Of a DNA stretch of 50,874 nucleotides, positions 5,331-21,061 are shown piece after piece (position 1 is the first letter of the stretch; each line of letters begins with the position of its first letter). Source of the stretch: Phormidium sp. OSCR. GTDB taxonomy: Bacteria; Cyanobacteriota; Cyanobacteriia; Cyanobacteriales; Geitlerinemataceae. Both the position numbers and the translations under genes were made by a program. The notes under the pieces are model-generated. The model saw only the letters and a program-made list of their open reading frames with translations, searched no databases and had not been told where the DNA came from. Where the stretch lies: the NCBI GenBank assembly GCA_001314905.1, contig LJZT01000021.1:1-50874 (forward strand). Reading direction: 5' to 3'.

Positions 5331-5387
5331 ATTTTGGGTGAATGTGTCTTGGCTTCAGTGTTGGTAACTCACAGTTGGGTTTAGGTT

Positions 5388-6485: not shown

Positions 6486-6683
6486 TCGCAAGATTGGTTA
6501 TAATCGTCCTACGGTGTTGGTAAAGATATAAAACCAACGGACCGAATCCTGTTCGAGCCATGGGCTTTAGGTATCGGATGGGTCGTTGCAATCAGGGTTC
6601 TAGAGAGCATTAGCCGATGGCCCAATCGGCCAATGACTCTCACATCGGGTGGATAAGATGCTTTGTGGCGGCCGTGTTGCCAC

Positions 6684-6719
6684 AGTTCAGACATTAGTTC
6701 AGACATTAGTTCAGACATT
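6684..6719. repeat. Triple 12-bp tandem repeat AGTTCAGACATT
   Basis: Three perfect head-to-tail copies of AGTTCAGACATT lie at 6684-6695, 6696-6707 and 6708-6719, ending 22 bases before the ATG of the next gene. Because 12 is a multiple of three, the repeat reads as a repeated VQTL if translation started further upstream at 6649. It more likely belongs to the 5' leader. Confidence 0.85.
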
Positions 6720-6741
6720 ACGGAGAGCATCGGATTTAATA

Positions 6742-7110
6742 ATGTATAACTCAACCAGTAGCGCAACCCAAACCCACTTACCCACATCGAGATTAGGACG
6801 CAAACGACTCGGAGCCTATCTCCTCGAAGCCGGACTGATTACACCGGCTCAGATCCAGGTTGCGGCCTATGATCAACAGGTGACGGGCAAGAAATTTTCC
6901 GAAGTGATTGTCGATCGCGGTTGGATTAAGCAACAAACCATTGACTTTCTGATTGAGCGGGTCATCAAGCCTGAACAGCAGGGACGACGTTCAGCGGGGG
7001 TCTTTGCGCAACCGGTTGAGCCATTTGAGCAGGTTTATGCTCGTCGCAAACATGAGCTGCTCAATGGTTCCCCGGACCGCGAAGAAGATCTCCCCTGGAC
7101 GGTGGACTAG
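6742..7110 (+). CDS. Small cyanobacterial protein with GspE/MshEN-like N-terminal fold
   Basis: The 122-residue protein carries a short helical motif, LGAYLLEAGLITPAQIQVAAYDQQ followed by GKKFSEVIVDRGWIKQQTIDFLIE. This resembles the N-terminal domain of type II secretion/pilus ATPases (LGxxLVExGLIxxxQLxxAL). In cyanobacteria the domain also occurs as stand-alone proteins of about this size, some linked to motility or c-di-GMP signalling; that link is inferred from family resemblance. The ATG at 6742 is chosen over the upstream 6649 because the extension would consist of the tandem repeat just upstream. GGAG at 6722 lies rather far from the ATG. Confidence 0.6.
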   Translation: MYNSTSSATQTHLPTSRLGRKRLGAYLLEAGLITPAQIQVAAYDQQVTGKKFSEVIVDRGWIKQQTIDFLIERVIKPEQQGRRSAGVFAQPVEPFEQVYARRKHELLNGSPDREEDLPWTVD

Positions 7111-7177: not shown

Positions 7178-9094
7178 ATGCCGGGAAGCGTGGACAGTAG
7201 AGATATCTTCCTATCAGCTTCAGCCGTGGATCATCGTTGGCTTCCTCTCACGTTCCTCTTACTTCTGCCAGGTTTAAGCAGTTGTGAGATGCTCCGTCCC
7301 CCCTCCCCAGTGGCGACAGCGGAGATGGTTCTGACGGAGGAGCGCCGTACCAATGAGGCGATCGAGCGCGGGGTGGCGGCGCGGAGTTTGGCGGTGCGGG
7401 AGGCCTTGGCTGATACGGATCTTGAGGAACTCGATCAGTGGTGGCGTTCCCGAGATATCTATGATCCTCACAAATATCTCCTACCGCCGATGTTGGCTCA
7501 ACTCAGCCTCACCCCCGAGGAAGACCAGGGGCCGATTTGGTCGGTTTGGTTGAGTGTGGAGGAGGATAAACGGGATCTCTATCATTTCCGCAGTCTCTAT
7601 GATGTGCGGATCTTTTTCCTGTTTCAAGAGTCGTTACCGGAGCCGGTTCGTCAGGCCTATCGCAGTATGTTGCAACCGCCTCGCATCTTTGAATGGGGCG
7701 AAGGCGGTACGGAAAATCATCTCTGGCAACAGTATATGTCCGGTTTGGCCATGATGGATGCCAGTGGTTTCCCGGTGGCCAATCCTCATTTTCTGGCCAC
7801 CCATGAAGCCTGGCTGCGAGCGGAACTGGCGAAATATGTCACCATTGGCCAAGGGGAATTTCACTCGTCAATTTACTATGGCTATAGCATCGGGGCTTTG
7901 CTGAATCTCTATGACTTTGCGCAAACCCCGGAACGGCGACAGTTAGCTCGGGCGGTGTTGGATTGGTTGTCGACTCAGATGGCTCTACGGCTGAGTTGGG
8001 GAACCGCTGGGGGGGCGGAAAGTCGTGGTTTCGATCGCCAAACTTGGAACAGTGGTTTGACGGCGTTGGCTTGGATTTGGTGGGGAAGTGATGATCCCCA
8101 GGAGATTGAGCGCATTGTGGCGCAGATGGGTCGCGAGGGCCAGCGTCTTGCGGTTTTGGCGGCTACCAGTGGCTATCGCCCTCCGGCCCAGTTGCGATCG
8201 CTGGCTCAGAAAACCCTTCCCCTTCCTTTTCAATTGCGGGCTAGTCATCCGAGTTATTACGGATATCATCAGGACAATCAATTTTGGGAAACCTTTTATG
8301 TCACCCCTGACTATAGTTTGGGAACCCTGCAAGCTCCTGGACGCAGTTATCAGGTGCAGGGGACGATTAACGCTCAATATGCAACCTATAAGTTAGTGGT
8401 GCGCGATCGCCAAGGTCGAGAGAATGCGGTGATTAGTTTGGGGGGAACCTATCATAGCCCATTGGCGACAGGACGCAGTCCCGGCGATCGCTATCTTCAG
8501 GAAAAAGGAGCCAGCCTCTATCAGTTGCGACTCACCTCAGAGGATGAGGCGGCGGGGGTTCCGGGACGGTCTCATTTGGTGATCCCCAAAGACTATGGGG
8601 AACCGCAGCGGATTGGCCCCTGGTATGTTTGGGAGATTGAGGGAGTCTGGCTTTGTGCTTGGGCCTGGGGGGATGAAATTCGCTTGGAGGTGCCCCTAGA
8701 GGAGGCTGAGGAGCATTTGGCGTTGGTCGCTCAGGGAGAGCAGACGGCTTGGATTACGGAAGTTCTGGCTCGCTCAGAGTATGAGACGTTGGACGAGGTG
8801 GAGGCGGCGTTAGCCCAGACGCAGGTCAATGATGAGACCTTAGAGACTGAAGGACGGTTGATGTATACCAGTGTTGAGGGCGATCGCCTCGAACTCATGG
8901 CTGACCCCAGTTTAAGGCTGGGACTCGGGCGTATTAATGGACAGCAACAATCCTTGACGGATAACCCGGTTTTAGAAAGTCCCTATGTGAATCAGCCCCT
9001 CTGGAGTGGTCGCCTGACGGTGGAAGACCCCCAGTCGGGGATGTGGGAGTTGCAGTTAAGGCCCGGTCAACCCCGCTGGAGGGACTCAGATTAG
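7178..9094 (+). CDS. Large predicted lipoprotein, possible (alpha/alpha)-toroid enzyme
   Basis: About 638 residues. The N terminus has a hydrophobic segment ending in the lipobox LSSC (PLTFLLLLPGLSSC), so it should be a lipid-anchored periplasmic protein. The middle (about residues 180-350) has paired helices with conserved aromatic motifs such as GQGEFHSSIYYGYSIGALLN and TWNSGLTALAWIWW. These, together with a beta-rich C-terminal half, recall polysaccharide lyases and other (alpha/alpha)-toroid proteins. I do not recognise the exact family, so activity is not assigned. The frame opens at TTG 7154; ATG 7178 and GTG 7190 are alternatives. It starts 68 bases after the small GspE-N-like gene, and its stop overlaps the stop of the convergent regulator gene by four bases. 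Confidence 0.6.
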   Translation: MPGSVDSRDIFLSASAVDHRWLPLTFLLLLPGLSSCEMLRPPSPVATAEMVLTEERRTNEAIERGVAARSLAVREALADTDLEELDQWWRSRDIYDPHKYLLPPMLAQLSLTPEEDQGPIWSVWLSVEEDKRDLYHFRSLYDVRIFFLFQESLPEPVRQAYRSMLQPPRIFEWGEGGTENHLWQQYMSGLAMMDASGFPVANPHFLATHEAWLRAELAKYVTIGQGEFHSSIYYGYSIGALLNLYDFAQTPERRQLARAVLDWLSTQMALRLSWGTAGGAESRGFDRQTWNSGLTALAWIWWGSDDPQEIERIVAQMGREGQRLAVLAATSGYRPPAQLRSLAQKTLPLPFQLRASHPSYYGYHQDNQFWETFYVTPDYSLGTLQAPGRSYQVQGTINAQYATYKLVVRDRQGRENAVISLGGTYHSPLATGRSPGDRYLQEKGASLYQLRLTSEDEAAGVPGRSHLVIPKDYGEPQRIGPWYVWEIEGVWLCAWAWGDEIRLEVPLEEAEEHLALVAQGEQTAWITEVLARSEYETLDEVEAALAQTQVNDETLETEGRLMYTSVEGDRLELMADPSLRLGLGRINGQQQSLTDNPVLESPYVNQPLWSGRLTVEDPQSGMWELQLRPGQPRWRDSD

Positions 9095-9870
9095 TTGACT
9101 AACCCCGATCGCAAGGCCCGAACAGCCGCCTGGGTGCGATCATCTACGCAGAGCTTATTGAGGATGCTGCGGACATGGGTTTTCACGGTTCCGACGGTAA
9201 TATAGAGTTTTTCGGCGATTTGGGCGTTGTTGCAGCCACCGACGATTAACTCAAGAATTTCTAACTCTCGTTTAGTGAGGGGGTCTGATTCCATCAACTG
9301 CTGCACTTCTGAGTCAACCCCTTCGATGTGGCGAGAGTCATCACATTCCTCAGCCGTCTCGACATCGTCGATCACAGTTGTGGCCAAGGACTTGGAAGCC
9401 TCCGAGGCTAGGGTTTGACCTGACGAGGCCGCTGATTGGGATTTGCGAGCTTGACGCAGGACAATTTGGGCGATGTTGGGATCGATCCAGGTATTCCCTT
9501 CATGGGTGACTTGGATGGCTTCGAGGAGACGATCCAAACTGGCATCTTTCATGCTGTAGGAGTCTGCACCGGCGGCGAAGGCGGCCAAAACGGCGTCTTC
9601 ATTGTCGTGCATGGTCAAAATTAAGACTTTGACGTGGTGTTTGGTACTTTCGCTGGACTGACGAAACTGTTGTAACAGTTCGATCCCGTCGAGATCCGGT
9701 AAGCCAATGTCGAGAATCGCTACATCGGGTTGGGTCTCCTCAAGCACGGCTAATCCTTCTTGACCTGTGGCGGCTTCTCCGACAATATCAATAACGCCAG
9801 TTTGCTCGAGGGCCGCTCGGATGCCAACGCGAGTGAGTTCGTGGTCTTCGATCAATACGGTGCGAATCAT
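9091..9870 (-). CDS. NarL/FixJ-family response regulator
   Basis: Receiver plus LuxR-type DNA-binding regulator of 259 residues. The receiver has the acidic pair E8-D9, phospho-acceptor Asp at residue 54 (AILDIGLPDLDG), the conserved Thr in VLILTMHD and Lys in YSMKDA. A long, Ser/Glu-rich linker (about residues 145-190) leads to the helix-turn-helix LTKRELEILELIVGG...TVKTHVRSILNKL. The linker is longer than usual for the family. It is transcribed divergently from the histidine kinase at 10195, its most likely partner. The intervening 324 bases should contain the promoters of both. Confidence 0.85.
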   Translation of the reverse strand: MIRTVLIEDHELTRVGIRAALEQTGVIDIVGEAATGQEGLAVLEETQPDVAILDIGLPDLDGIELLQQFRQSSESTKHHVKVLILTMHDNEDAVLAAFAAGADSYSMKDASLDRLLEAIQVTHEGNTWIDPNIAQIVLRQARKSQSAASSGQTLASEASKSLATTVIDDVETAEECDDSRHIEGVDSEVQQLMESDPLTKRELEILELIVGGCNNAQIAEKLYITVGTVKTHVRSILNKLCVDDRTQAAVRALRSGLVN

Positions 9871-10194
9871 ACTATCTATTAAAGGATTTTGCGAAATTTA
9901 TACCGGTTAAGAGAATGGGGCAGACCCTAATCCATCAGGGGAAATCGGGTTAAACTGGGGTCAAGTTTAGGGGCAAATCGAGAGAAAACGCACTTGCGAG
10001 GCAGAATCTCCTCTGGCAAAATCAAAACAGTTTTTCGGTGATTAAATCGTTAGGAAGGGGACAGACCTCTATCTGAGTTGCTGAACCTCTTACTCAGGAT
10101 AGAGGACAAACTGCCTAAAAATTTATAACTTTGTATTATACCCCTTATTGAGCTTTGAACGATATCATCCCTAGATATTTTGTTGCCACGACCC
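9871..10194. other. Divergent regulatory region between regulator and kinase genes
   Basis: This 324-base spacer holds a strong hairpin at 10066-10105 and an AT-rich segment ending in TATTAT at 10134-10139, a possible -10 element for the kinase. A GGGG-rich stretch near 9958-9975 lies closer to the regulator. No small reading frame stands out. Confidence 0.5.
10066..10105. repeat. Long hairpin in the divergent region
   Basis: CCTCTATCTGAGT at 10066-10078 pairs with ACTCA-G-GATAGAGG at 10092-10105, a 13-bp stem with one bulged G and a 13-base loop. There is no T-run on either side, so it does not look like a terminator. It could be a protein-binding site or the stem of a small RNA. Confidence 0.6.
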
Positions 10195-11517
10195 ATGACA
10201 AATGGACCAGTCCCAATTCTTGTGATCGGCTTTGATACCGAGACGGATATTAATGCTAAAGCGGCCTTACAGGCCTTTGCAGCCCCCCAGGAGGACGATC
10301 TCGGCCCCACACTTCGTTTTTGTCAGCAGTACCCTACGGGAGACGGAAGCCGGGGAGGCGGAACTGTTGCTGGAATCCTCTTGGATGGCGATCGCCTCAA
10401 TCTCAAAGCCGTGATGGCGGCATTACGACAAGATTTTCCTCAGACGCCGATTGTGGTTACAGGGTATAATCCTGAGTTAGAAGCCGGTGAGTTGGCAGCT
10501 GGGGCCGATGAGGTGATCAATCGTCATTATTTTACCTCTGAGGGACTGGCTATGATCTGGCGGGTTCTGTTTTGTCGTGTTGGCCGCCGGCGGTTCAATC
10601 AGGGAGGAGATCTTGAGGAAGACTGCGATATTTCTTATGGGGGTGACGATCGCCAACAATTAGAGACCCGCATCAGTGAGCAGAATCGTCTCATTGCAGC
10701 TCAACATCAGGAATTGAAACGACAACGAGAGCAGATTCGCCGTCAACATCTAACTATTTTAGAGGCTTCTCGGATGAAGTCGGCCTTTCTCTCAACGGTC
10801 TCTCATGAGTTACGAACACCGTTGAATGTCATTATCGGGTTTTCTCAACTGCTATTACGCAAAAAAAATAGTTCTTTGACGCCGGTTCAAGTGCAAACGT
10901 TACAATGTATTTTTAATAACGGCAAGCAACTTTTGTCTGTTATTAATGATATCATTGAGCGGTCTAAATTAGAAGCGGGAGCCTCGGAGCTTCGTCCCAA
11001 AGCATTCAATTTAGTGCAGTTAGTCACGTCGATTGCCGGAAATGCTCGTTGGCTCTGTGAACAGAAAGGGTTAGCACTCTGGATTGATGCTAATGTCGAG
11101 AATCCTCGGGTTTTGCAAGACCATCAGGGAGTTCGCCGGGTGGTCTCAAATTTGTTAGCCAATGCCTTAAAGTTTACGGAAGATGGGGATATTTCGGTCC
11201 AAATTTGGGAAGTGACTCCTGATCGCCTCGCCATTGCAGTCTCGGATACAGGAATCGGTATCCCCCCGGAACATCTGAAGCGAATTTTTGCTGCTTTTGA
11301 ACAGTTGGATAATTCTTTGGCCCGTAATTATAACGGAGTTGGCTTAGGCTTGGCAATTGTTGATTCTCTCGTGAAAATGATGAAGGGAACAATTCATGTA
11401 GAGAGTATTCAGGGACAGGGATCAACCTTCCGGGTTGAATTACCTCGTTCTGTGCTAGATTCGGGTCTTCGTGAGTCGCGAGAGTCCAGATTTCCCTATC
11501 AAAAAAAAAACCGATAA
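10195..11517 (+). CDS. Histidine kinase with degenerate N-terminal receiver domain
   Basis: About 440 residues. Residues 1-130 resemble the last part of a receiver domain (TPIVVTGYNPELEAGELAAGADEVI) but lack an Asp in the phospho-acceptor position, so this looks like a pseudo-receiver sensor. A coiled coil (about 155-195) leads to the HisKA H-box FLSTVSHELRTPLNVIIGF with His204. The catalytic domain has an N-box (SNLLANALKFT), G1 DTGIGIP, F-box FAAFEQLD and G2 GVGLGLAI, so kinase activity is expected. No membrane segment. The start is ATG 10195; an upstream in-frame TTG adds only five residues. The receiver-kinase at 11584 follows 66 bases later on the same strand, and the divergent NarL regulator is the candidate target. 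Confidence 0.85.
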   Translation: MTNGPVPILVIGFDTETDINAKAALQAFAAPQEDDLGPTLRFCQQYPTGDGSRGGGTVAGILLDGDRLNLKAVMAALRQDFPQTPIVVTGYNPELEAGELAAGADEVINRHYFTSEGLAMIWRVLFCRVGRRRFNQGGDLEEDCDISYGGDDRQQLETRISEQNRLIAAQHQELKRQREQIRRQHLTILEASRMKSAFLSTVSHELRTPLNVIIGFSQLLLRKKNSSLTPVQVQTLQCIFNNGKQLLSVINDIIERSKLEAGASELRPKAFNLVQLVTSIAGNARWLCEQKGLALWIDANVENPRVLQDHQGVRRVVSNLLANALKFTEDGDISVQIWEVTPDRLAIAVSDTGIGIPPEHLKRIFAAFEQLDNSLARNYNGVGLGLAIVDSLVKMMKGTIHVESIQGQGSTFRVELPRSVLDSGLRESRESRFPYQKKNR

Positions 11518-11583: not shown

Positions 11584-12693
11584 ATGCTAACACCGGAACC
11601 TAAGATTGATCGAATCCTCGCTGTTGATGATTCTCCTGATAATTTGTTTCTCGTACAAGCGATTCTCGAAGATGAAGGATATCTGATTGAGTTAGCTGAG
11701 GATGGTTTTGCGGCCCTGGATGAGATTGAGGCGAATCCGCCGGATTTGATTCTTCTCGATGTTATGATGCCAAATTTGGATGGGTATGAGGTGACGCGTC
11801 GGGTGCGAACTAACCCACATTTTCCTTATATTCCCATTTTGTTGATTACCGCTCATGAAGCATCGAGTGTGGTGAAAGGGTTGGATGTGGGAGCGGATGA
11901 TTTTATCCGTAAGCCGGTGGAAATGGAGGAGTTACAGGCACGGGTGCGATCGCTGCTGCGGTTAAAGCATACCATTGATGAACGCGATCGCATGGCCCGA
12001 GAACGAGAGGATTTTGTCTCTCGCCTGACTCATGATTTACGAACCCCTTTGGTGGCCGCAGATCGAATGCTGAATTTGATGCAATCTCAGGCGTTTGGGG
12101 AGATTTCTGAGTCCATGGATGAGGCGATCGCCACCATGATTCGCAGCAATAATAATTTGCTGGATATGGTAAATTTACTCTTAGAAGTCTATCGCTATGA
12201 GGCAGGACGAAAACAGTTAACCTTTGCGCCGTTTAATCTCTGCGAAACCCTGCACGAGATTTTAGATGAACTGACCCCCATTGCTCAAGATAAGCAGATT
12301 GAGATTATCCGCGAGTTTCAAGACGATAGTTGTGAGGTGGTTGGCGATCGCCTCGAACTCTATCGCGTTTTTATGAATCTGATTGGCAATGCGATTAAGT
12401 TTACCGATAAGGGAACGGTTCAATTGCGACTTTATCGCTCTCCGGTTCCTAATCCCTGGTTGATGTTAGAGATTGAAGATACAGGAATTGGAATTAGTGC
12501 CAGCGATCGCGCCAGTCTCTTTACTCGTTTTCGTCAAGGTCATCACAAACGCTCGGGAAGTGGGTTAGGCTTACATCTGTGCCAGCGAATTGTCGATGCT
12601 CATCAGGGTAAAATTGAGGTGATTTCAGAAGTCGGTCGAGGCAGCCTATTTCGGATTAAATTACCGCTGGAGATGCCTGGGACTTGCCGATAA
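11584..12693 (+). CDS. Response regulator-histidine kinase fusion (REC-HisKA-HATPase)
   Basis: The 369-residue protein opens with a complete receiver: D15-D16 (AVDDSPDN), acceptor Asp59 (LILLDVMMPNLDGYE), Thr in LLITAHE and Lys110 in DFIRKPVE. It continues into a kinase core with the H-box FVSRLTHDLRTPLVAA (His150), N-box NLIGNAIKFTDKG, G1 EDTGIGIS and G2 GSGLGLHL. This REC-first order is common in cyanobacterial phosphorelays, where the receiver takes phosphate from an upstream kinase and controls the second kinase. The preceding kinase gene is the obvious donor candidate. The 3' end overlaps the convergent TPR gene by 33 bases. Confidence 0.85.
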   Translation: MLTPEPKIDRILAVDDSPDNLFLVQAILEDEGYLIELAEDGFAALDEIEANPPDLILLDVMMPNLDGYEVTRRVRTNPHFPYIPILLITAHEASSVVKGLDVGADDFIRKPVEMEELQARVRSLLRLKHTIDERDRMAREREDFVSRLTHDLRTPLVAADRMLNLMQSQAFGEISESMDEAIATMIRSNNNLLDMVNLLLEVYRYEAGRKQLTFAPFNLCETLHEILDELTPIAQDKQIEIIREFQDDSCEVVGDRLELYRVFMNLIGNAIKFTDKGTVQLRLYRSPVPNPWLMLEIEDTGIGISASDRASLFTRFRQGHHKRSGSGLGLHLCQRIVDAHQGKIEVISEVGRGSLFRIKLPLEMPGTCR

Positions 12694-13125
12694 TTGCGCC
12701 TGAGATTGGCGAGTTACGACGTAATCTCGCATTTGTTGAGCATTGCGATAGTCTTCTTGGCGTTCGAGTTGGCGATAGAGTTCAACGGCGGTGGCTAAGT
12801 CGGCGATCGCCGCATCATAATCTTGATATAAATACTGAGTCCAACCCCGTAACTCAAGCAGTTCGGGGTTATTTCCTCGGGCCAACTCAATCGCTTTATC
12901 AAAGGCAAAAATAGCATTATGATAATCTCCCACCGCCGCCGCATCTCGTCCGACAATTTCCCAATCTTCGGCAGTATTTAAGTGGTCAGGAATCGACTGT
13001 TGCTCATAGTCTGGCGGCGTAAATACGCCCTCAGAGTTACCCAACGCCGCCTGTCCACCGAGGCTCAACGAGGCGGCGATCGCACCCACCACAGCCACTC
13101 GAATGAGTTGGTTTTGTCTAAACAT
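12661..13125 (-). CDS. Exported TPR-repeat protein
   Basis: The 154-residue protein has a signal peptide (about residues 1-29, with VAVVGAIAASLSLGGQAALG). It continues with two to three tetratricopeptide-like helical pairs, the clearest being DAAAVGDYHNAIFAFDKAIEL and LYQDYDAAIADLATAVELYRQL. It should be a small periplasmic scaffold. It lies 160 bases downstream of the B12/iron-type permease gene on the same strand; the gap suggests its own promoter, so membership in the uptake operon is not certain. Its last 33 bases overlap the convergent receiver-kinase gene. Confidence 0.7.
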   Translation of the reverse strand: MFRQNQLIRVAVVGAIAASLSLGGQAALGNSEGVFTPPDYEQQSIPDHLNTAEDWEIVGRDAAAVGDYHNAIFAFDKAIELARGNNPELLELRGWTQYLYQDYDAAIADLATAVELYRQLERQEDYRNAQQMRDYVVTRQSQAQLSASPRHLQR

Positions 13126-13285
13126 AAAACGTACCTAATTATCATCAATAGTTCTCACTCTGAACCCTTAACAATGACCATTCAGAGAAAATTAAACTAA
13201 TTTGATCCTAATTAAAACCGCTCCTAAACCCATCTATCCCCAGAAAGGAATCTCACTCTACCCAGAGAAAGACTTATGCAAATTA

Positions 13286-14281
13286 TTAATGATTAGTCCC
13301 CCGTTGCAGAATCGCATGAGTGACAATCGGGGCGCCAATCATCGCCATCACCGCATTCAACGGCAAAACAATATCCTGACCTGGAACCTGCGCCATCCAA
13401 TCCGCCAACAACGCCAACATCGCCCCCAACAGCATCACCGCCGGGAGTAACCGCAACACATTGGACGTATTCCACAGAGAACGAGCCAAATGAGGCACTG
13501 CAACCCCCAAAAAAGCAATTGGGCCACAAAACGCCGTCACCGTTCCCGCCAAAATCGCCGTACTCAGCAGCGTCAGCAACTGCACCCGTTGCAGCCGTAA
13601 CCCCAACCCAATCGCCGTCATATCCCCCAACAGCAACAAATTCAGAGACTTCGCCAACCCAGCCGCCAACAGCAACCCCAGCAGCACCATTCCCACAAAA
13701 AGCGTCATCCGTTGCCAAGGAATCCCCGCAAAACTGCCAAACGTCCAAGTCAAATAAGCTTGAATCCGCTCCCGAGAACTAAAATGCAGCAAAATCGTCA
13801 CCAGAGCGTTCACCCCATAGCCAAACATCAACCCCAACAACAGCAACCGTTCCCGACTGCGAACCCTCCGGGCCATCAGCATCACCAATCCCAACACCAC
13901 CGCCGCACCCAAACTAGCCGCCAGCACCCGACTCCAGGGGCCAACCTGGCCCAGCAACACCACCAGAGCCACCCCCAAACTGGCTCCCGAACTAATCCCC
14001 AAAACAAACGGCCCCGCCAGAGGATTCCCAAACAGCACCTGCATTTGCAACCCCGACACCGACAACGCCACCCCCGCCACCATCGCCGTCACCGCTTTCG
14101 GGAGGCGAAAGGTCATGACAATGGTGGCCCAAGTGGGGTCTTGAGGCGGTTGTCCCCAGAAAATTCGCAGCATTTCCCCCGCTGGAATCTCCACCGACCC
14201 CACCGCCAAACTGACATAAAGAATGAGCAAAAACAGAAGGACAACGCCCCAACTAATTCCGACTCGTCGTCCAAAGCTCAC
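13286..14281 (-). CDS. btuC: BtuC/FecCD-type ABC transporter permease, likely for cobalamin
   Basis: Inner-membrane permease of 331 residues with nine to ten hydrophobic segments and the family motifs FRLPKAVTAMVAGVALSVSG near the N terminus, GNPLAGPFVLGISSGA, and the coupling region FCGPIAFLGVAVPHLAR. The family imports vitamin B12, haem or ferric siderophores. Corrinoid is preferred here because the operon's first gene follows a cobalamin riboswitch. It is 29 bases downstream of the phosphoesterase gene and should be the last core gene of the operon. No ABC ATPase gene (BtuD) adjoins it, so the ATPase must be encoded elsewhere or shared. Confidence 0.8.
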   Translation of the reverse strand: MSFGRRVGISWGVVLLFLLILYVSLAVGSVEIPAGEMLRIFWGQPPQDPTWATIVMTFRLPKAVTAMVAGVALSVSGLQMQVLFGNPLAGPFVLGISSGASLGVALVVLLGQVGPWSRVLAASLGAAVVLGLVMLMARRVRSRERLLLLGLMFGYGVNALVTILLHFSSRERIQAYLTWTFGSFAGIPWQRMTLFVGMVLLGLLLAAGLAKSLNLLLLGDMTAIGLGLRLQRVQLLTLLSTAILAGTVTAFCGPIAFLGVAVPHLARSLWNTSNVLRLLPAVMLLGAMLALLADWMAQVPGQDIVLPLNAVMAMIGAPIVTHAILQRGTNH

Positions 14282-14310: not shown

Positions 14311-15057
14311 CTAACCAGGATGAGAACGAATCACCTCAGTCTGATAAGTTCCATCCTCAAACAAACTTAAACCCCGAAATCCCGGATAGGCTTCCTCCTC
14401 ACTCGCCCCCTCCCGTAGCACCTGTTTACAAGTCGAAGGAGTTCCACAAAAATGAATGCCGTGATGCTCTTGGTCAAACTCTAAATGGACATGACCAAAG
14501 AGGACAAGTTTCACCTGAGGAAAGCCAGTCAAACAGTTGAGAAATTCTTGAGAATTTTGCAAACCAATAGTATCGAGCCAATCAAGTCCCATCGGAATAG
14601 GATGATGATGTAACACCACCACCGTCGGCTGAGAACAAGCCGTTAAGGATTGCTCTAACGCCTGAAGTTGAGCCTCACTAAAATAGCCTTCTCCCGATTC
14701 CGCAGTCTCTAACGTAGAGTCCAGGAGTAGAACCTGCCAACCTTGACCTTGAACAACCTTATCCGCGAGAAAGGGTGAGTCTTTAAATTCCCGATTTAAG
14801 ATATCGACGTCATCGTGATTTCCGGGAATATAGTAAGTTGGCAAATTGAGAGGCGCAATTCGTTCAATCAGATGTTGATAGGCTTGGGGTTCTCCCCGAT
14901 GGGTTAAATCTCCCGTAAGCAGCAGAACATCAGGCTTCCAGGTTATGACTTCTGTGACGACATCCCCGAGGGAGTCCCACGTCACTAAACCTCGCATCGC
15001 AGTGTTGCGGTCAGCAAAGAGATGAGTATCGGTGATTTGAGCAATTTTGAGAACCAT
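14311..15057 (-). CDS. Calcineurin-like metallophosphoesterase (CpdA-like)
   Basis: About 248 residues with all metal-ligand motifs of the calcineurin-like phosphoesterase fold: ITDTHLF (DxH), LLTGDLTHRG (GDxxH), IPGNHDD (GNHD), VVLHHHPIP and LFGHVHLEF (GHxH). The order and length fit class III cyclic-nucleotide phosphodiesterases such as CpdA. There is no signal peptide. It starts four bases after the binding-lipoprotein stop and ends 29 bases before the permease, so it is embedded in the B12 uptake operon. A cobalamin-linked phosphatase role is therefore possible, but nothing in the sequence shows it; hydrolysis of cAMP or another phosphoester is equally possible. Confidence 0.8.
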   Translation of the reverse strand: MVLKIAQITDTHLFADRNTAMRGLVTWDSLGDVVTEVITWKPDVLLLTGDLTHRGEPQAYQHLIERIAPLNLPTYYIPGNHDDVDILNREFKDSPFLADKVVQGQGWQVLLLDSTLETAESGEGYFSEAQLQALEQSLTACSQPTVVVLHHHPIPMGLDWLDTIGLQNSQEFLNCLTGFPQVKLVLFGHVHLEFDQEHHGIHFCGTPSTCKQVLREGASEEEAYPGFRGLSLFEDGTYQTEVIRSHPG

Positions 15058-15061
15058 AAGA

Positions 15062-16273
15062 CTATTCGAGCTTTTGATAATAGGTTTTTTCTGCATCTGG
15101 GAGCAGATTTGGGTGAAAAATCTGAATCAAATCGGCTAAAATTAGGTTAGGGTAGAGAATCCCCATTTCCCAATAGTCATTGCCGCCAAATTCGTTGACT
15201 CGTTTACTATTATTATAGATGCGATCGCCCTGCCAAGCCGCAAAATTTCCATAGCGTGGGTCATCCTCAATCACATCAGCCCGAGTTCGCCAATTACTAT
15301 TGACATTTACCCAGAAATCTGCATCTCTTGCCCGCTGATAGACCACCTCAAAATCCAGAGGAACCGTCCATTGACTGTCCAGGTCATCCCAGAGATAATC
15401 CGCCCCCGCATCCCGCAAAAACTGGGCTGCATAACTATTAGCACCTGGAACATACCAAGTATTCGTTGAACTAAACCCCGTAAACACCGTTGGCCGAGAC
15501 GTATCATCAGCAATCGCCGCCGCCACCCGTTGACTCAACTCCTGATAATCAGCACGAATCTCCTCAAACACCTCTTTTGCTTTTCCCTCTTGATTGAGAA
15601 ACAACGCCGTAAACTTCAGCCATTCCGACCGTCCCAGAGGAGACATTTCCAAATACTCCGAATTCAGCACAACCCGTAAACCCGCATTCTCCAACATCAG
15701 CACCGTATCCGAACTTGACCCCCCCGCATCAAAAGTCATCACGATATCAGGATTAAGACTCAAAATCGCCTCAACATTAACCACCTGATTGCGGCTCACA
15801 TCGCGAATCTTTTGCTGTTTCACTCGTTCTATGACAGCAGGAGTTTGAGTAATCTGAGTATCACTCATTCCCACCAAGCGATTAACCCGGTCTAGCGCCG
15901 CAAAATGGGGTAAATAAGTCGTCGATAACACCACCACCGACGGCACCGGAACCTCAACCACCGTAGCCTCACCGATATCATCAGGAATGGGGGTTCCACA
16001 TTGAACTAAAACATACTCAACGGGGTCATTCGCCTCAGGATGAGGAGAAGCGAGCGTAACTCGTTTATAGTGACCGTGATAGTCCACCTCAAACCCCGTC
16101 GCAAACTCCACCTGAACCTTATCCGGGAAATAATCCCGACTGGGGTCAAACTCCTGCACACAATCAGGAGAAAGCGGACGTTGCACCACCGGAGAAACTG
16201 AGTTTTGAACACAAGCATTCAGACCCAATCCAAGGAGAAATAGCACCGGAGTAATTCGCAGAGATAGTCGCAT
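15062..16273 (-). CDS. btuF: ABC transporter substrate-binding lipoprotein, BtuF/FepB-like
   Basis: Periplasmic binding protein of about 403 residues. A lipoprotein signal ends in LGLNAC at the N terminus. Class III binding-protein features follow: VVVLSTTYLPHFAALDRVNRLVGM, NVEAILSLNPDIVMTFDAG, and a C-terminal lobe with the RDADFWVNVNSNWR and YNNSKRVNEFGGNDYWE stretches. The extra 90 residues before the first lobe are unusual for BtuF. Annotation by similarity alone would say iron siderophore; the riboswitch-led operon argues for corrinoid. ATG 16273 is preferred over TTG 16279 because AGGA lies nine bases upstream. Three to four bases separate it from the phosphoesterase gene. Confidence 0.75.
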   Translation of the reverse strand: MRLSLRITPVLFLLGLGLNACVQNSVSPVVQRPLSPDCVQEFDPSRDYFPDKVQVEFATGFEVDYHGHYKRVTLASPHPEANDPVEYVLVQCGTPIPDDIGEATVVEVPVPSVVVLSTTYLPHFAALDRVNRLVGMSDTQITQTPAVIERVKQQKIRDVSRNQVVNVEAILSLNPDIVMTFDAGGSSSDTVLMLENAGLRVVLNSEYLEMSPLGRSEWLKFTALFLNQEGKAKEVFEEIRADYQELSQRVAAAIADDTSRPTVFTGFSSTNTWYVPGANSYAAQFLRDAGADYLWDDLDSQWTVPLDFEVVYQRARDADFWVNVNSNWRTRADVIEDDPRYGNFAAWQGDRIYNNSKRVNEFGGNDYWEMGILYPNLILADLIQIFHPNLLPDAEKTYYQKLE

Positions 16274-16322
16274 CAACAAATCCTATTTTAATTCAACAAA
16301 TCCTGTCGGGGCGAACCCTTGT

Positions 16323-16355: not shown

Positions 16356-16408
16356 CATTTAATCACCAATATATTGAATGTAACGTCACGATTTTTTCCT
16401 GAGTCCCA

Positions 16409-16472
16409 GATGCGTTCCGGCAGTTCCAACATTTTGCTATCATTCAATCCACCTAACTCGCCGGAACACATC
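16409..16472. repeat. Strong 13-bp hairpin in the operon spacer
   Basis: GATGCGTTCCGGC at 16409-16421 pairs with GCCGGAACACATC at 16460-16472, with one mismatch (a G-U pair in one orientation) and a 38-base loop. It sits in the 245-base gap between the ferredoxin-type gene and the binding-lipoprotein gene. There is no T-run after it on either strand. An mRNA processing or stabilising hairpin or a small repeat element are possible. Confidence 0.6.
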
Positions 16473-16518
16473 CTACCGACCCAGGCAACCACAAGGGATG
16501 GCCCCTACGTGATTAACC

Positions 16519-17391
16519 TCACGACTGCGGAGGATATAAATGCTCTTGAACAGGCGTTCCTTGCACTAAATGTTCAGACACAATCCGACGCGCCACCTCC
16601 GGTTTCACACGACTGTACCAAGTCCTATCTCCCGAATAAAAAACAATCGGTCCCAACTGACAGACTTCCAAACATCCCGCCGTGCGAACCGTCACATCCA
16701 ATCCCGCCTCCTCCACAGCAGATTCCAACGCCTCAAACACCGGTTCCCACTTGCGAGACGGATTACAGCGACTCGACCGACAAACCGCCAAATAGGGACG
16801 TTTTAGGGGATTTTCCTCAAAGGGAATCGGCCGTTCTCCCAAGATATAAATTGAGCGCAACTCATCATAAAGCGCCAACTTTTCTAACAAGGGTTTTCCT
16901 TCCGGGAGAACATCCTCATCCTCCCCCAGCAAGGGATTGGGTAAAAACAGATTCATCATCCGTTCTCCCTCCCCATTCCAAAACTGAATCCCCCAACTTC
17001 TCGGCTGGCCCGCTTCATTCAAACGCCGATAGAACGCACCCCGACTTAAACGCCGCTGTTGTCGTAACTCTGGGGGAGTTTTGCAATGGGGACCTCCCAG
17101 ATGCTCTTCTAAACAGAGATGTAAATGCCAACCTTCTGTCACAACCGTTAAATAACCGTCATACAATAAACAGGTTTTGGGAGGCGCCGTCAGTTCCAAT
17201 TCCAGGACACTTCCCTGAACCACATGACCTACGCCAATTTCCGACCAATGGTTTTGAAACAGGTCATATAACAGGGGACCCGTGACATCACTAGAAATGG
17301 GGAAATCTTCATATTCTAGGGTTCCTCCTTGCGGGGTGGGTTCTGTGGTTTTGCGGTTGAGAGGGGCAAGCCAAGGCTGAAAGTTTGTCAT
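16519..17391 (-). CDS. Two-domain protein: unknown domain fused to thioredoxin-like [2Fe-2S] ferredoxin
   Basis: The 290-residue protein has two parts. Residues about 25-185 form a domain seen as a separate protein of about 180 residues in proteobacteria, with GPLLYDLFQNHWSEIGVG, GWHLHLCLEEH, RGAFYRRLNEAG, SWGIQFWNGEGE and NLFLPNPLL. Its function is unknown. Residues about 195-290 are a thioredoxin-like [2Fe-2S] ferredoxin: LAVCRSSRC, then TAGCLEVCQLGPIVFY and WYSRVKPEVARRIVSEHL. The protein is cytoplasmic. It lies 42 bases downstream of the TonB-dependent receptor gene, under the same cobalamin riboswitch. A reductive step on imported corrinoid, such as removing the upper ligand, is a reasonable inference but unproven. 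Confidence 0.75.
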   Translation of the reverse strand: MTNFQPWLAPLNRKTTEPTPQGGTLEYEDFPISSDVTGPLLYDLFQNHWSEIGVGHVVQGSVLELELTAPPKTCLLYDGYLTVVTEGWHLHLCLEEHLGGPHCKTPPELRQQRRLSRGAFYRRLNEAGQPRSWGIQFWNGEGERMMNLFLPNPLLGEDEDVLPEGKPLLEKLALYDELRSIYILGERPIPFEENPLKRPYLAVCRSSRCNPSRKWEPVFEALESAVEEAGLDVTVRTAGCLEVCQLGPIVFYSGDRTWYSRVKPEVARRIVSEHLVQGTPVQEHLYPPQS

Positions 17392-17433: not shown

Positions 17434-19455
17434 TTAGAAGCTATAACGAATCCCCCCTTGAACACTTCGACTTAACCCGGGAAAGCCGGGAAAGACTTCA
17501 TAGCGTTCATCAAAGATATTATTTACACTGGCATTGAGACGTAAATTGTCGGTAATGGGGGCTTGTAACTTGAGGTCTAATGTGGTGTAGCCTGGTAGGC
17601 TTTCGCTGTTGGTGTTATTGACAAAAAAGTTGCTGAGATTGCGTAGGAGTAATCCGGCATACCAGCCATTGGGGGTGGCGTAGGCGACTCCGATATTAAA
17701 CACATCGGCATCCCGTAAACTGAGGCGATTGCCTTCTACAGCGTCGTTGGTATCTTGCAAGATTTGGGTATTATTTAAGGTGAGGTTGGCAAAGGCGAAG
17801 ACATTGGGAGCCAGTTGCAGGTCTAAGGCGGCTTCTACCCCTAAGGCTTCCACTTTGCCGATGTTAACATTGGTGCTGGGGTCGCCAAATTGAAAGGCAA
17901 TCAGTTCTGAAATTTGGTTGGCAAAGAGAGTCAGACGAAATAAACCGATGTCGCCGAGTTGTTGGTCGATGCCGAGGTCAAAACTGTTGCCTCGTTCCGG
18001 TCGTAGATTGGGATTACCGGCGACGGAAAAGGCGGCGAGTCCTTCGAGTTGAGACATGAGGGGAGATTTAAAACTTCTGGCATAATTGGCGCGGAGTGCT
18101 GTGCTATCGCTGAGGTTCCAAAGGACACCGACAGCGGGAGAGGTGAAAGAGCCATTTTCGAGGCTATTAAATTCTTGGCGCAGACCCAAGTTTAGACTGA
18201 GATTATCGGCAAGGTTGACCTCATAGCGAGCAAACGCGGCGCCATTGTCGATGCGACTGTTGTAGTTTTCCGTACTTTGGCCTGTGGAGATGTTAACGGT
18301 TCTATTTTCTGAAGAAATGGTGCGAAAGTCGATGCCGTAGGTGAGGGTTTGGTTATCGGTGAATTGCCAGTTATGTTGAACTTGCACGCCGAAACTGTTG
18401 CGGTCAAGGTTGCTACGGCTGCTTTCGGGGTCGCGGAAGGTGGAGTCGAGGATATCGGTATAGATGCGGGCCGTGAGGTTGGAGGTATCCTCGGGGTTGA
18501 GTTGGGATTCCCAGAGGAGGTCGAGTAGCCAGTCTTCGGTGTATTGTCTGGCTTGGGGACTGAGGCGGTTAAATTCTCCCAGGCTTCCGGCTGCGGTGGG
18601 AACGCCGCCGGGAACGCCGATGTCTCGGCTGAGGTAGAGGCCGGAGAAGGTCAGACGGTTGCGATCGCCCAAATCGGCGGCTAGAGTGAGGTTGAGATTG
18701 TTATAGTTGGCCTCGGCATTGTCCCGAGTTCCCGAAACATCGACGGTTTCCAGGTCAAAGGGAAAGTCATTGCGGGAGAAGGTGCGGTTATAGCCAATCA
18801 CCCAGCCGAAGTCTCCGGCGGTTCCCCGACTTTGAATCACTTGTTGGTTGTAGCCAAAACTCCCCACTTCGCTTGCGATAACCACTTCCGGTTCCTCCGT
18901 GGGGGATTGGCTGACGATGTTGAGGGTTCCGCCGACGGCGCTAGACCCGTAGAGGGTGGAACTTCCCCCAGGGAGGACTTCCAGGCGTTCGACAAAGTTG
19001 GTGGTGAAGGAGGAGAGGTCAAAGCCTCCAGAAGACCCCAGGTCATTGATGGGTCGTCCGTTGAGAAGAATGAGGGTTTGGGAGGAGTTTCCGCCGCGCA
19101 TAAATTGGGAACTGACGGACCCGAGTTGACCGCCACTGGTTCCATCGCTGAGGATTCCGGGGACGAATCGCAGTGCATCTTGGACGGTGGTGGCCCCTTG
19201 AACGTCGATTTGTTCGCGGGGAATGATATAGATGGGACGGGAGGAATCCCGTAGGGGTCGGTTTTGGCGAAAGGGGCCAAAAACGGGTTGGCGCAGGATG
19301 CGTTGAATGAAGATTTCGACTTCTTCAATGTCGTCCTCTGTGGGGTCATCGCCGGTGGGGGGATTATCGTTGGGGTCTGGGTTGGCGAGACTGGGACTGA
19401 CGAGGAGTAGGAGAAATAGGAGGGAGAGGGGAAGGGATTTCATGATTTTTGGCAT
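17434..19455 (-). CDS. btuB: TonB-dependent outer-membrane receptor, likely for cobalamin
   Basis: Outer-membrane barrel of 673 residues. Signal peptide at residues about 1-24 (SLPLSLLFLLLLVSPSLA), an acidic linker, then a plug domain (about 70-190) with PIYIIPREQIDVQGATTVQDAL, QFMRGGNSSQTLILLNGRPIND and LEVLPGGSSTLYGSSAVGG. The 22-strand barrel ends in the typical terminal aromatic residue (GGIRYSF). A cobalamin riboswitch and terminator lie in its 5' leader, so it should import vitamin B12 or related corrinoids and be switched off when these are plentiful. It is the first gene of the operon continuing through the ferredoxin fusion to the permease. The second ATG at 19443 is an alternative start. 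Confidence 0.85.
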   Translation of the reverse strand: MPKIMKSLPLSLLFLLLLVSPSLANPDPNDNPPTGDDPTEDDIEEVEIFIQRILRQPVFGPFRQNRPLRDSSRPIYIIPREQIDVQGATTVQDALRFVPGILSDGTSGGQLGSVSSQFMRGGNSSQTLILLNGRPINDLGSSGGFDLSSFTTNFVERLEVLPGGSSTLYGSSAVGGTLNIVSQSPTEEPEVVIASEVGSFGYNQQVIQSRGTAGDFGWVIGYNRTFSRNDFPFDLETVDVSGTRDNAEANYNNLNLTLAADLGDRNRLTFSGLYLSRDIGVPGGVPTAAGSLGEFNRLSPQARQYTEDWLLDLLWESQLNPEDTSNLTARIYTDILDSTFRDPESSRSNLDRNSFGVQVQHNWQFTDNQTLTYGIDFRTISSENRTVNISTGQSTENYNSRIDNGAAFARYEVNLADNLSLNLGLRQEFNSLENGSFTSPAVGVLWNLSDSTALRANYARSFKSPLMSQLEGLAAFSVAGNPNLRPERGNSFDLGIDQQLGDIGLFRLTLFANQISELIAFQFGDPSTNVNIGKVEALGVEAALDLQLAPNVFAFANLTLNNTQILQDTNDAVEGNRLSLRDADVFNIGVAYATPNGWYAGLLLRNLSNFFVNNTNSESLPGYTTLDLKLQAPITDNLRLNASVNNIFDERYEVFPGFPGLSRSVQGGIRYSF

Positions 19456-19686: not shown

Positions 19687-19784
19687 GATGGGGGTTGGGA
19701 AACCCGGAGAATTTAAGCGGAAATTAAGTCTTGTCATAGGAACCATCATCTGTAACTCGCAGATGTTTGAGGTGGAGTTTGGCG

Positions 19785-19915
19785 ACTCGGCGGGCATCCT
19801 GACTTAGAGCGTTTTGGCTCCTTACAGTTGCGGTACAGCGCCGGATTTACACCGGACTTTCCCCGTTTCCTCTGATGGCTGCTCCCCATCAGAACCGAAT
19901 TTCAGCACTGTAGCA
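19785..19915 (-). promoter_or_regulatory. Cobalamin riboswitch (aptamer)
   Basis: On the minus strand the aptamer core is clear: GGTTC near 19896, then CGGGGAAAGTCCGGTG, the CCGGTGTAAATCCGG hairpin with GCTGTACCGCAACTGTAA (the C-G-C-A-A-C-TGTAA block of the class), and GTCAGGATGCCCGCC at 19803-19789, matching the conserved CAGGATRCC segment. The outer P1 helix limits are approximate. It lies between cbiD and the TonB-dependent receptor, on the receptor's strand, and is followed by a terminator at 19624-19686. It identifies the downstream transport genes as B12-responsive. Confidence 0.95.
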
Positions 19916-19987: not shown

Positions 19988-21061
19988 CTAATTTTGCTCG
20001 ATGAGGTCTGATGCGATCGCATTTTGAGCCACAATCACCCCCTGGCGTTCAAAAAGAATCACCCCGATTTCTAGGTGGGTGTTCGCGTATTTGTGGACGT
20101 AGGCTTGGGCATTTTGGCTGATGCGATCGCACAAATCCTTAAACACAGTTTCAGCTAAGTTTTCTTGGTCTAAAAACTGATGCGCCTCAGCCATGGTTCG
20201 ACAATCTAAAACCTCACGAATTAGCTTGACATTATCAGTGTAGCGTGCTAAAAAAGCCGCAAGAATTTCCAATTTTCCATCGGCAATATGGCTCGATGTA
20301 TTAAAAATCTTACCCGCCAATTTGACGAGTTTTCCATGATAGCCCAGAAGTAACACCGACCGCACCTCATGGAGTCCCGCTTCGACGAGTAACGCCCCCA
20401 ACCAATTACCCACTTGCACAATTCTCGCCTTGGGAAGATTCAGTCGTTCAGCCACTTGTAAGCCATTGCTACCAATACAAAACACCAGGTCTTTTTCTGA
20501 GGAACTTTTGTCCTGAAGTTGAGTTTTGGCCGTTTCCAAACTTTCAATCGCCGTATGAGGTTGGGCAATACCATGAGTTCCCAGGAGAGATAACCCCTCT
20601 AAAACTCCAAAGGCTTCGTTAGAGGTTCGTTTTGCAAGCTGTCGTCCTTCGGGGAGAATAATCACCACGCGCAGGGTTTTTCCTGAGGGAATCAACTCGA
20701 AGAGATTAGCTTCAGCTAAACGACGCGCATAGTTATAAATGGCGGCTTGTCCTTCCTGGGTTCTGCCAATTCCTTCACCCCCGACTAAGGAGAGAGATTC
20801 ACCCGAAAAAGGGTCTAGGCTAACATCGGCCCAAATGGGAGTATTTCGGGTTAAATCGAGGTTTGCACCGGGGTCACTGCGGGTAATGGCTAAGGCGCGA
20901 TTTTGGTCGAGACAGGCGACTTGTTCGATGGGGATTTCGGCGCAATCGGGGAGGAGGTTGAGTTGGACGGTTTGGGGAGATTGGCGCTGTTGCAGATGCA
21001 GTAAGGCGGCTTTGGCGGCTGCAATGGCGAAGACTGGGAGGGTGTAACCGGAATTTTGCAT
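19988..21061 (-). CDS. cbiD: Cobalt-precorrin-5B C1-methyltransferase
   Basis: The 357 residues match CbiD, which adds the C1 methyl group using S-adenosylmethionine in the anaerobic (early cobalt insertion) branch of corrin synthesis. Family landmarks are the opening SGYTLPVFAIAAAKAALLHL, the RSDPGANLDLTRN region, GGEGIGRTQEG, LGTHGIAQP, CIGSNGLQVAERL, QVGNWLGALLVEAG and LLGYHGKLVKLAGKIFNTSSHIADGK. Length is close to the family norm of about 370. The ATG at 21061 gives the expected start. The cobalamin riboswitch begins 73 bases after its stop and faces the transport genes, so cbiD itself is not under that switch. cobM, a later pathway gene, is 4.2 kb upstream beyond an AT-rich island. Confidence 0.9.
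   Translation of the reverse strand: MQNSGYTLPVFAIAAAKAALLHLQQRQSPQTVQLNLLPDCAEIPIEQVACLDQNRALAITRSDPGANLDLTRNTPIWADVSLDPFSGESLSLVGGEGIGRTQEGQAAIYNYARRLAEANLFELIPSGKTLRVVIILPEGRQLAKRTSNEAFGVLEGLSLLGTHGIAQPHTAIESLETAKTQLQDKSSSEKDLVFCIGSNGLQVAERLNLPKARIVQVGNWLGALLVEAGLHEVRSVLLLGYHGKLVKLAGKIFNTSSHIADGKLEILAAFLARYTDNVKLIREVLDCRTMAEAHQFLDQENLAETVFKDLCDRISQNAQAYVHKYANTHLEIGVILFERQGVIVAQNAIASDLIEQN

Follow-up and report, generated by a model that had tools for sequence, protein, structure and literature searches.

The window analysed here, a 50,874-nucleotide stretch of Phormidium sp. OSCR (contig LJZT01000021.1), encodes a protein in which the domain DUF7676 is joined to a thioredoxin-like [2Fe-2S] ferredoxin domain, and its gene lies in an uptake operon preceded by a cobalamin riboswitch. 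We propose, with a probability of roughly 55%, that this fusion is a cytosolic corrinoid carrier and reductase which would act between import and adenosylation. The parts of this proposal differ in strength: the fusion very likely acts on imported corrinoid, DUF7676 would probably be the domain that binds it, the fused ferredoxin is slightly favoured as the reductant of the bound corrinoid, and removal of the upper ligand is only tentatively put forward as the purpose of the protein. New here are a predicted heme-carrier fold for DUF7676, an invariant HxHxC motif, stand-alone DUF7676 genes in uptake operons and a candidate importer. Published work is cited by PMC number, from excerpts of each paper.

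The fusion protein and its two domains

The start codon of the fusion gene lies 42 nucleotides past the stop codon of the gene for a BtuB-like receptor, and its parts map as follows.

16519–17391, minus strand: fusion gene, an open reading frame with an ATG start, 290 amino acids
16846–17346, minus strand: DUF7676 domain (PF24724), residues 16–182, Pfam E-value 1e-66, predicted ChuX/HutX/HemS fold
16531–16797, minus strand: thioredoxin-like [2Fe-2S] ferredoxin domain, about residues 199–287, from PDB sequence and Foldseek matches
17113–17127, minus strand: H89-x-H91-x-C93 motif, invariant, on a strand (residues 89–93) assigned by DSSP in the model

Residues 16–182 score 223.9 bits against PF24724, well above its curated cut-off of 27 bits, and thus belong to DUF7676. 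The C-terminal domain matched the PDB sequences 7q4v_B (HydB; 2.8e-9) and 1f37_A (Aquifex ferredoxin; 3.9e-9), and its thioredoxin-like ferredoxin fold was recovered by Foldseek (1m2a, 1.9e-7; TM-scores by target of 0.71–0.77 for the Aquifex and Azotobacter ferredoxins). Searched alone, this domain reached 20.8 bits (3.7e-4) against PF01257, for which the cut-off is 24.8, and the fusion scored far under the cut-offs of two NCBIfam ferredoxin models; as the PF01257 cut-off is missed, the domain is at most a divergent thioredoxin-like ferredoxin.

Bacterial and archaeal genomes were scanned and 80 of 95 confirmed stretches were kept, giving 80 fusion loci in 77 genomes; near copies were dropped by hand to give alignments A1 (the window plus 57 of the 80 loci) and A4 (the window plus 50 of the 80). 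Cluster-type cysteines C204, C209, C240 and C244 (C-x4-C-x30-C-x3-C) are invariant in the 58 rows of A1, and a pattern check found them in 80/80 loci; from this conservation the four are putative [2Fe-2S] ligands, as befits a member of the ferredoxin class. The whole-protein AlphaFold model has a mean pLDDT (predicted local distance difference test) of 92.3 and a pTM (predicted template modelling score) of 0.89. No signal peptide is apparent by eye, and the protein is presumably cytosolic. In all 80 loci the HxHxC and four-cysteine patterns lie within one open frame of 286–393 amino acids; because both domains share a single frame so consistently, a chance fusion or an assembly artefact was ruled out. 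An open reading frame on the plus strand, antisense to the fusion gene (16374–17285), was taken as mechanical.

An earlier note, made from the sequence of the window alone, had described a two-domain protein here, with a four-cysteine thioredoxin-like ferredoxin following a domain that resembles stand-alone proteobacterial proteins of unknown function. The 290-amino-acid frame, the PF24724 match and the four-cysteine domain bear out that architecture, and stand-alone relatives do exist in Proteobacteria, as well as in Actinomycetota, but the N-terminal domain already carries a Pfam DUF number.

Association with corrinoid uptake operons

The remaining features of the operon and its flank in the window are listed below.

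19772–19914, minus strand: cobalamin riboswitch aptamer (RF00174; cmscan 57.9 bits, E-value 7.2e-12), just ahead of the BtuB-like gene
17434–19455, minus strand: BtuB-like TonB-dependent receptor (PF00593, 1e-47; PF07715, 3.3e-25)
15062–16279, minus strand: BtuF-like periplasmic binding protein (PF01497, 1.6e-19; NCBIfam BtuF, 1.1e-7, under cut-off)
14311–15096, minus strand: CpdA-like metallophosphoesterase, flanked by the BtuF- and BtuC-like genes (PF00149, 1.5e-18)
13286–14281, minus strand: BtuC/FecCD-type permease (PF01032, 2.7e-72; top NCBIfam model BtuC, 1.2e-51, under cut-off)
19988–21061, minus strand: CbiD corrin-ring methyltransferase, upstream of the riboswitch on the same strand (TIGR00312, 309.7 bits; cut-off 200)

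The top NCBIfam model for the BtuB-like receptor is TIGR01779 TonB-B12 (1.4e-52), at 179.1 bits under its cut-off of 599.7. Directly after the BtuF-, CpdA- and BtuC-like genes, no ATP-binding cassette (ABC) ATPase was seen in the list of open reading frames of the window. A CpdA-like homologue occurs near the fusion in 8/80 loci by clustering, or nine by direct blastp, and is annotated as such in Acaryochloris (locus L104).

DUF7676 was found in 10/59 relatives and in 17 of the 291 sampled cyanobacteria, the matches in the latter lying in open frames of 290–386 amino acids, which by length alone could hold the fusion; on sequence evidence, the fusion is conserved within cyanobacteria and is patchy yet widespread in the phylum. 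Within 6 kb of the fusion lie BtuB-like genes in 66/80 loci, BtuF-like genes in 61/80 and BtuC-like genes in 58/80; ABC ATPases, named by eye, occur within this distance in 39/80 loci, 28 of which have the ATPase gene downstream of the fusion in the same orientation, and CobW-like GTPases, likewise named by eye, in 9/80. A riboswitch covariance model (R1), built from ten sequences of such operons of which three came from the 80 loci (L004, L021, L052), matched 76 riboswitches across the 80 loci. An upstream riboswitch in the same orientation is present in 58/80 loci against 0.16 expected from the riboswitch density of the same genomes, an estimate that counts one of the 77 genomes twice; among loci with 5 kb or more of DNA upstream, the proportion is 52/63.

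Beyond cyanobacteria the survey consisted of plasmid records. Fourteen of these encode DUF7676, divided evenly between cyanobacterial fusions (seven) and stand-alone copies (seven), and a riboswitch precedes the operon in 12/14 (6/7 of each kind). In Azospirillum, Paracoccus and Diaphorobacter the gene for a TonB receptor comes first, then DUF7676, then genes for a binding protein (in Paracoccus annotated as hypothetical), a permease and an ATPase. The two Methylocella records run from the receptor through DUF7676 to a small membrane protein. In Rhodococcus the genes for a binding protein, a permease and an ATPase come first, ahead of an FhuF_C-type (2Fe-2S) gene and DUF7676, which overlap by 4 bases. 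A cobalamin riboswitch precedes the operon in each of these, both Methylocella records included. The two records that lack one are a Streptomyces plasmid, with no riboswitch within 9 kb of DUF7676, and a Gloeocapsopsis plasmid considered below. The DUF7676 frame of the Streptomyces plasmid (L098, about 8998–9700) is unannotated and apparently broken.

Two further plasmid genes encode ferredoxin domains. The Rhodococcus record (L095) carries at 9643–10329, minus strand, a weak CbiX-like part (under cut-off) joined to a thioredoxin-like [2Fe-2S] ferredoxin; this gene closes another ABC importer operon, for which a separate riboswitch is present (14618–14751, minus strand). A Methylomonas plasmid (L100) has at 5019–5378 a ferredoxin gene resembling the C-terminal domain of the fusion, flanked by cobJ and cysG within an operon for B12 synthesis.

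By gene order, the fusion is the ortholog of alr4030 of Anabaena PCC 7120. The order there is alr4027 (metal-binding protein), btuB2, alr4030 (ferredoxin-like), btuF, btuC and btuD, with evidence for a single cobalt- and cobalamin-regulated transcript from alr4027 to btuD that is turned on by cobalt starvation (PMC10878165). A Trichormus locus (L099) parallels this order, with DUF1636 in the place of alr4027 and the fusion in that of alr4030. BtuB2 is important for fast cobalamin uptake in Anabaena, uptake is reduced in tonB3 and btuD mutants, and btuB1 and btuB2 mutants are unaffected in Fe-schizokinen uptake (PMC10878165). In the excerpts of that paper alr4030 is called similar to ferredoxins, and neither its N-terminal domain nor its function is treated; an older table gives it as a hypothetical protein among iron genes, beside fecB3/fecD3/fecE3 (PMC3610870).

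Together these data agree with the placement given in the earlier note, which had a riboswitch-controlled uptake operon around the gene: RF00174 lies upstream, and the fusion sits between the BtuB-like and BtuF-like genes. Its suggestion that imported corrinoid is used is well supported by the frequencies of riboswitches and of BtuB-, BtuF- and BtuC-like genes given above, in loci and plasmid records alike. The check it had advised, a search for the N-terminal domain alone and its gene neighbours, returned the stand-alone copies, which in Proteobacteria and Rhodococcus belong to uptake operons with a riboswitch ahead of them, and homologues were not, in the loci and plasmid records searched, mostly outside corrinoid loci, the outcome it had named as refuting. 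That no protein of this combination had been described was nearly right: a function was not found described, and no mention of DUF7676 was found in the open-licence PMC literature, but alr4030 itself is in print in the two papers just cited.

Predicted fold and the HxHxC motif

With the whole-protein model, Foldseek matched Aquifex ferredoxin to the C-terminal half; its matches to HutX, ChuX and HemS were attributed, by exclusion, to the N-terminal half. The isolated DUF7676 domain (pLDDT 89.1, pTM 0.85) had as its top match the ChuX structure 6u9j (1.8e-5). Ranks 1–26 (1.8e-5 to 7.9e-3) comprised 19 structures titled ChuX, HutX, ChuS, HemS, PhuS or heme-binding, together with seven whose titles give no function (3na2, 2ph0, 2hqv); at rank 27 the probability fell to 0.20. 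DUF7676 is therefore predicted, with moderate scores, to have the ChuX/HutX/HemS heme-carrier fold. A sub-threshold Pfam match (0.26) of DUF7676 to PF22684, LFE_1968-like, may, as a guess, concern the family of 3na2, which is likewise from Leptospirillum. The only PDB sequence matched by the DUF7676 profile, a lysyl-tRNA synthetase (0.29), was judged a chance hit.

HxHxC is invariant in the 58 rows of A1 and in alignment A3, which consists of the window, 11 cyanobacterial loci and five of the seven stand-alone plasmid copies, the second Methylocella copy and the broken-looking Streptomyces copy being omitted; the pattern occurs in 80/80 loci. Since H89, H91 and C93 alternate along one strand of the model, all three should face the same side. 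Set by eye against FEFHLNMD, a ChuX/HutX strand, the segment WHLHLCLE offers the lead that H91 may be the counterpart of a conserved ChuX/HutX histidine.

This fold bears on two other readings of the operon. The first, that it is an iron system in which the fusion handles heme or a ferric siderophore, as the older table would imply, is very unlikely and was rejected as the main reading on account of the cobalamin riboswitches, which occur in three phyla. The heme-carrier fold, the FhuF_C-type neighbours in Actinomycetota and the listing of alr4030 among iron genes speak in its favour; it is further opposed by the cobalamin import and the normal Fe-schizokinen phenotype reported for Anabaena, and by the presence of a separate ChuX/HutX family in 18/59 relatives. 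In Lyngbya (L014), a ChuX/HutX-like open reading frame (6649–7053) lies upstream of the fusion.

The second holds that the fusion helps to destroy imported corrinoid and so frees its cobalt, like the heme-breakdown relatives of the fold. In its favour, a PDB title names ChuS as a heme oxygenase, heme is delivered by ChuS to ChuW, which opens the ring (PMC10404700), the Anabaena operon responds to cobalt starvation, and genes resembling a cbiMNQO cobalt importer (by eye) come right after the fusion and a membrane protein in L014. Low cobalt, however, is also low cobamide, the signal of the riboswitch, and the CbiD gene beside the operon gives this genome at least one gene of corrin synthesis. 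No enzyme is known to us that would break open corrin to obtain the metal, and we regard cobalt salvage as highly improbable.

[2Fe-2S] partners of DUF7676

Three unlike [2Fe-2S] modules accompany DUF7676: the fused thioredoxin-like ferredoxin, FhuF_C-type proteins and DUF1636. An FhuF_C-type (2Fe-2S) gene directly precedes DUF7676 in both Rhodococcus and Streptomyces; the FhuF_C cysteine motif (PF11575) gave no listed match to either half of the fusion and was matched by these two neighbours alone. DUF1636 lies near 24/80 cyanobacterial fusions (25 open reading frames, all matching Pfam-proven DUF1636) and in the Azospirillum operon, and is related (2.4e-9) to a solved thioredoxin-like ferredoxin of Rhodobacter capsulatus, ORF378 (9jn8). 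Examples in B12 operons are L094 12182–12577 and L099 5210–5617. The open-licence PMC literature yielded no mention of DUF1636 together with cobalamin, nor of ORF378 together with Rhodobacter capsulatus. This recurrent pairing with [2Fe-2S] modules is our main reason for proposing electron transfer to the ligand of DUF7676.

A candidate second importer

In 16/80 loci the fusion is accompanied by a protein of about 200 amino acids in which roughly five or six hydrophobic segments can be made out by eye; it stands beside DUF7676 in Methylocella as well. In these 16 loci, three of which (L008, L013, L024) extend less than 2 kb past the fusion on the downstream side, neither BtuF nor BtuC occurs within 6 kb; a further 62 loci contain BtuF or BtuC without the membrane protein and two have neither, a mutual exclusion with a Fisher P-value of 5.7e-15 when kinship is ignored. 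When the BtuC of the window was searched in the 16 genomes concerned, 15 had no match above 40% identity and six had none at all; the exception, G071 (54%), has in addition a fusion locus of the ABC type (L067), and four control genomes with BtuFC loci gave BtuC matches of 53–57%. The 291 cyanobacterial genomes contained three full-length matches to the membrane protein, each just past DUF7676 on the same strand, at about 370–410 nucleotides, and three further matches that are fragments. On a tree of the 80 fusions, made by a quick method, presence of the membrane protein requires at least six changes, of which strongly supported branches force just one.

Residues P59, W84, N87, Q88, G91, Y97, P98, W106 and G107 are invariant in alignment A5 (12 of the 16 membrane-protein loci with L093 and L103); examples are L004 11000–11614, L052 9057–9659, L093 9592–10161 and L103 6932–7519. 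In L014 the fusion and membrane protein are followed at 11701–13743 by a riboswitch and then cbiM-, cbiN- and cbiQ-like genes. No Pfam or NCBIfam family came over or near its cut-off for the membrane protein, and no PDB sequence matched it; identity with BtuM, whose structure was presumably among the PDB sequences searched, was rejected on these grounds. From its gene context, the protein is most likely a candidate second inner-membrane corrinoid importer that replaces BtuFCD. As the fusion is kept alongside either BtuF/BtuC (62 loci) or the membrane protein (16 loci), its role would come after import.

Proposed role and the evidence against it

In the mechanism that we favour, DUF7676 would probably receive cobamide brought in by BtuB and the inner-membrane importer, with the HxHxC strand as the best candidate for a contact to the cobalt atom or to its axial ligand. 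Electrons would then pass from the fused [2Fe-2S] ferredoxin to the cobalt, taking Co(III) to Co(II), and this reduction would loosen the upper ligand, be it cyano, hydroxo, methyl or adenosyl; the ligand-free cobamide could then be handed to an adenosyltransferase or to methionine synthase. A possible consumer, the adenosyltransferase CobA/BtuR, is encoded in the same genome. A search there for CblC found no match, but the control search was equally silent, so the missing match proves little. Reduction or upper-ligand removal, as the earlier note had suggested, fits the [2Fe-2S] domain, the carrier-like predicted fold and the HxHxC motif.

Several observations weigh against this proposal. The fold scores are moderate, with a best TM-score of 0.49 by query and 0.57 by target and root-mean-square deviations mostly of 4–6 Å, and the sequences do not add to them: PF06228 (ChuX/HutX) gave no listed match to DUF7676 at E-values up to 10, although the HMMER filters drop most matches above 0.1, and profile–profile comparison by hhalign with 17 cyanobacterial ChuX/HutX sequences (of 18 matches, L147 being dropped for an internal stop) gave a probability of 1.6%, equalled by 7/200 column shuffles. 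The global mode of hhalign returned a nonsense result and was discarded. Sequence profiles thus do not confirm common descent, and DUF7676 does not qualify as a member of the ChuX/HutX family; the fold similarity lends support to the view that it works like the heme carriers, which is a different matter from membership.

The riboswitch link is also incomplete. R1 found none in 18/80 loci, ten of which hold less than 5 kb of upstream DNA; the other eight hold at least 6 kb and were negative with Rfam too, and in 4/80 loci a riboswitch lies elsewhere than upstream on the same strand. For Anabaena a shorter transcript, alr4030–btuD, that would start before alr4030 and escape the riboswitch has been proposed (PMC10878165). 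Finally, the Gloeocapsopsis plasmid (L103) and probably L006 represent apparent metal-starvation clusters, in which the fusion, the small membrane protein and DUF1636 stand amid genes such as thrS, folE, hisI and CobW-like or other GTP-binding proteins (by eye in L006), with no riboswitch. These clusters raise the alternative that the fusion handles a zinc or cobalt chelate as part of the response to metal starvation, with the corrinoid operon as just one home among several; we consider it remote, as two records stand against an upstream riboswitch in 58/80 loci and 12/14 plasmid records. L006 is titled Candidatus Gracilibacteria, and its fusion nests in the cyanobacterial tree, so it is probably a misassigned cyanobacterial contig.

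The stretches fetched from Methylocella, Paracoccus and Diaphorobacter, for which the plasmid gene tables are incomplete, contain no annotated [2Fe-2S] gene near DUF7676, so a redox partner is not always encoded nearby. This also suits a role as corrinoid chaperone only, in which DUF7676 would ferry cobamide to its users and the ferredoxin would dock, sense or reduce a user enzyme. The heme-carrier fold is compatible with such a role, ChuX, ChuS and HutX binding heme 1:1 and ChuS passing it on to ChuW (PMC10404700), but the pairing of three unlike [2Fe-2S] types with DUF7676 across lineages suggests that electrons matter to DUF7676 itself, and we regard the chaperone role as unlikely, though less so than the other alternatives.

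Our proposal of a carrier and reductase concerns the step by which imported cobamides with varied upper ligands become ready for adenosylation, and a riboswitch-controlled carrier fold with its own electron donor makes this step testable in a genetic model, Anabaena, through alr4030. If it holds, PF24724 would gain a function and DUF1636 would be tied to cobamide uptake. In marine genera such as Trichodesmium and Okeania the membrane protein is a candidate B12 importer, which would replace BtuFCD genome-wide (e.g. in Trichodesmium). A broader generalisation, to which we give somewhat less than even odds, is that cobamide-importing bacteria share a dedicated cytosolic corrinoid carrier and reductase of heme-carrier fold, with an HxHxC strand that binds the cobamide and interchangeable [2Fe-2S] donors, that serves two importers, BtuFCD and the membrane protein.

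Comparison with known systems

Genes for heme carriers lie by those of a TonB receptor and an ABC importer. The fusion gene has analogous neighbours, its metal tetrapyrrole being a corrinoid, and its predicted fold is that of the ChuX/HutX/HemS/PhuS carriers (PF06228 and relatives); it differs from them in its cobalamin riboswitch, its HxHxC motif and its fused [2Fe-2S] domain, and has no significant sequence kinship with them. Its C-terminal domain resembles, in fold, four cysteines and sequence, Aquifex ferredoxin, Azotobacter FeSI and HydB-type domains, but these are free proteins or parts of hydrogenases, whereas the ferredoxin of the fusion is joined to DUF7676 and falls under the PF01257 cut-off.

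CblC/MMACHC has a fold different from that predicted for the fusion, although the proposed outcome, removal of the upper ligand and reduction of cobalt, would be the same. The CblC/MMACHC decyanase uses flavin (PMC6072759). BtuM, a bacterial cysteine-mediated decyanase and solitary B12 transporter whose cysteine acts on cobalt, likewise works on imported B12, as we propose for the fusion (PMC6072759); it is a membrane protein, unlike the fusion, which by eye has no membrane part and carries an electron donor. FhuF, a [2Fe-2S] protein that reduces an imported metal complex, has another fold and an iron-siderophore substrate (PMC8068687), but would be similar to the fusion in principle, and its FhuF_C relatives adjoin DUF7676 in Rhodococcus and Streptomyces.

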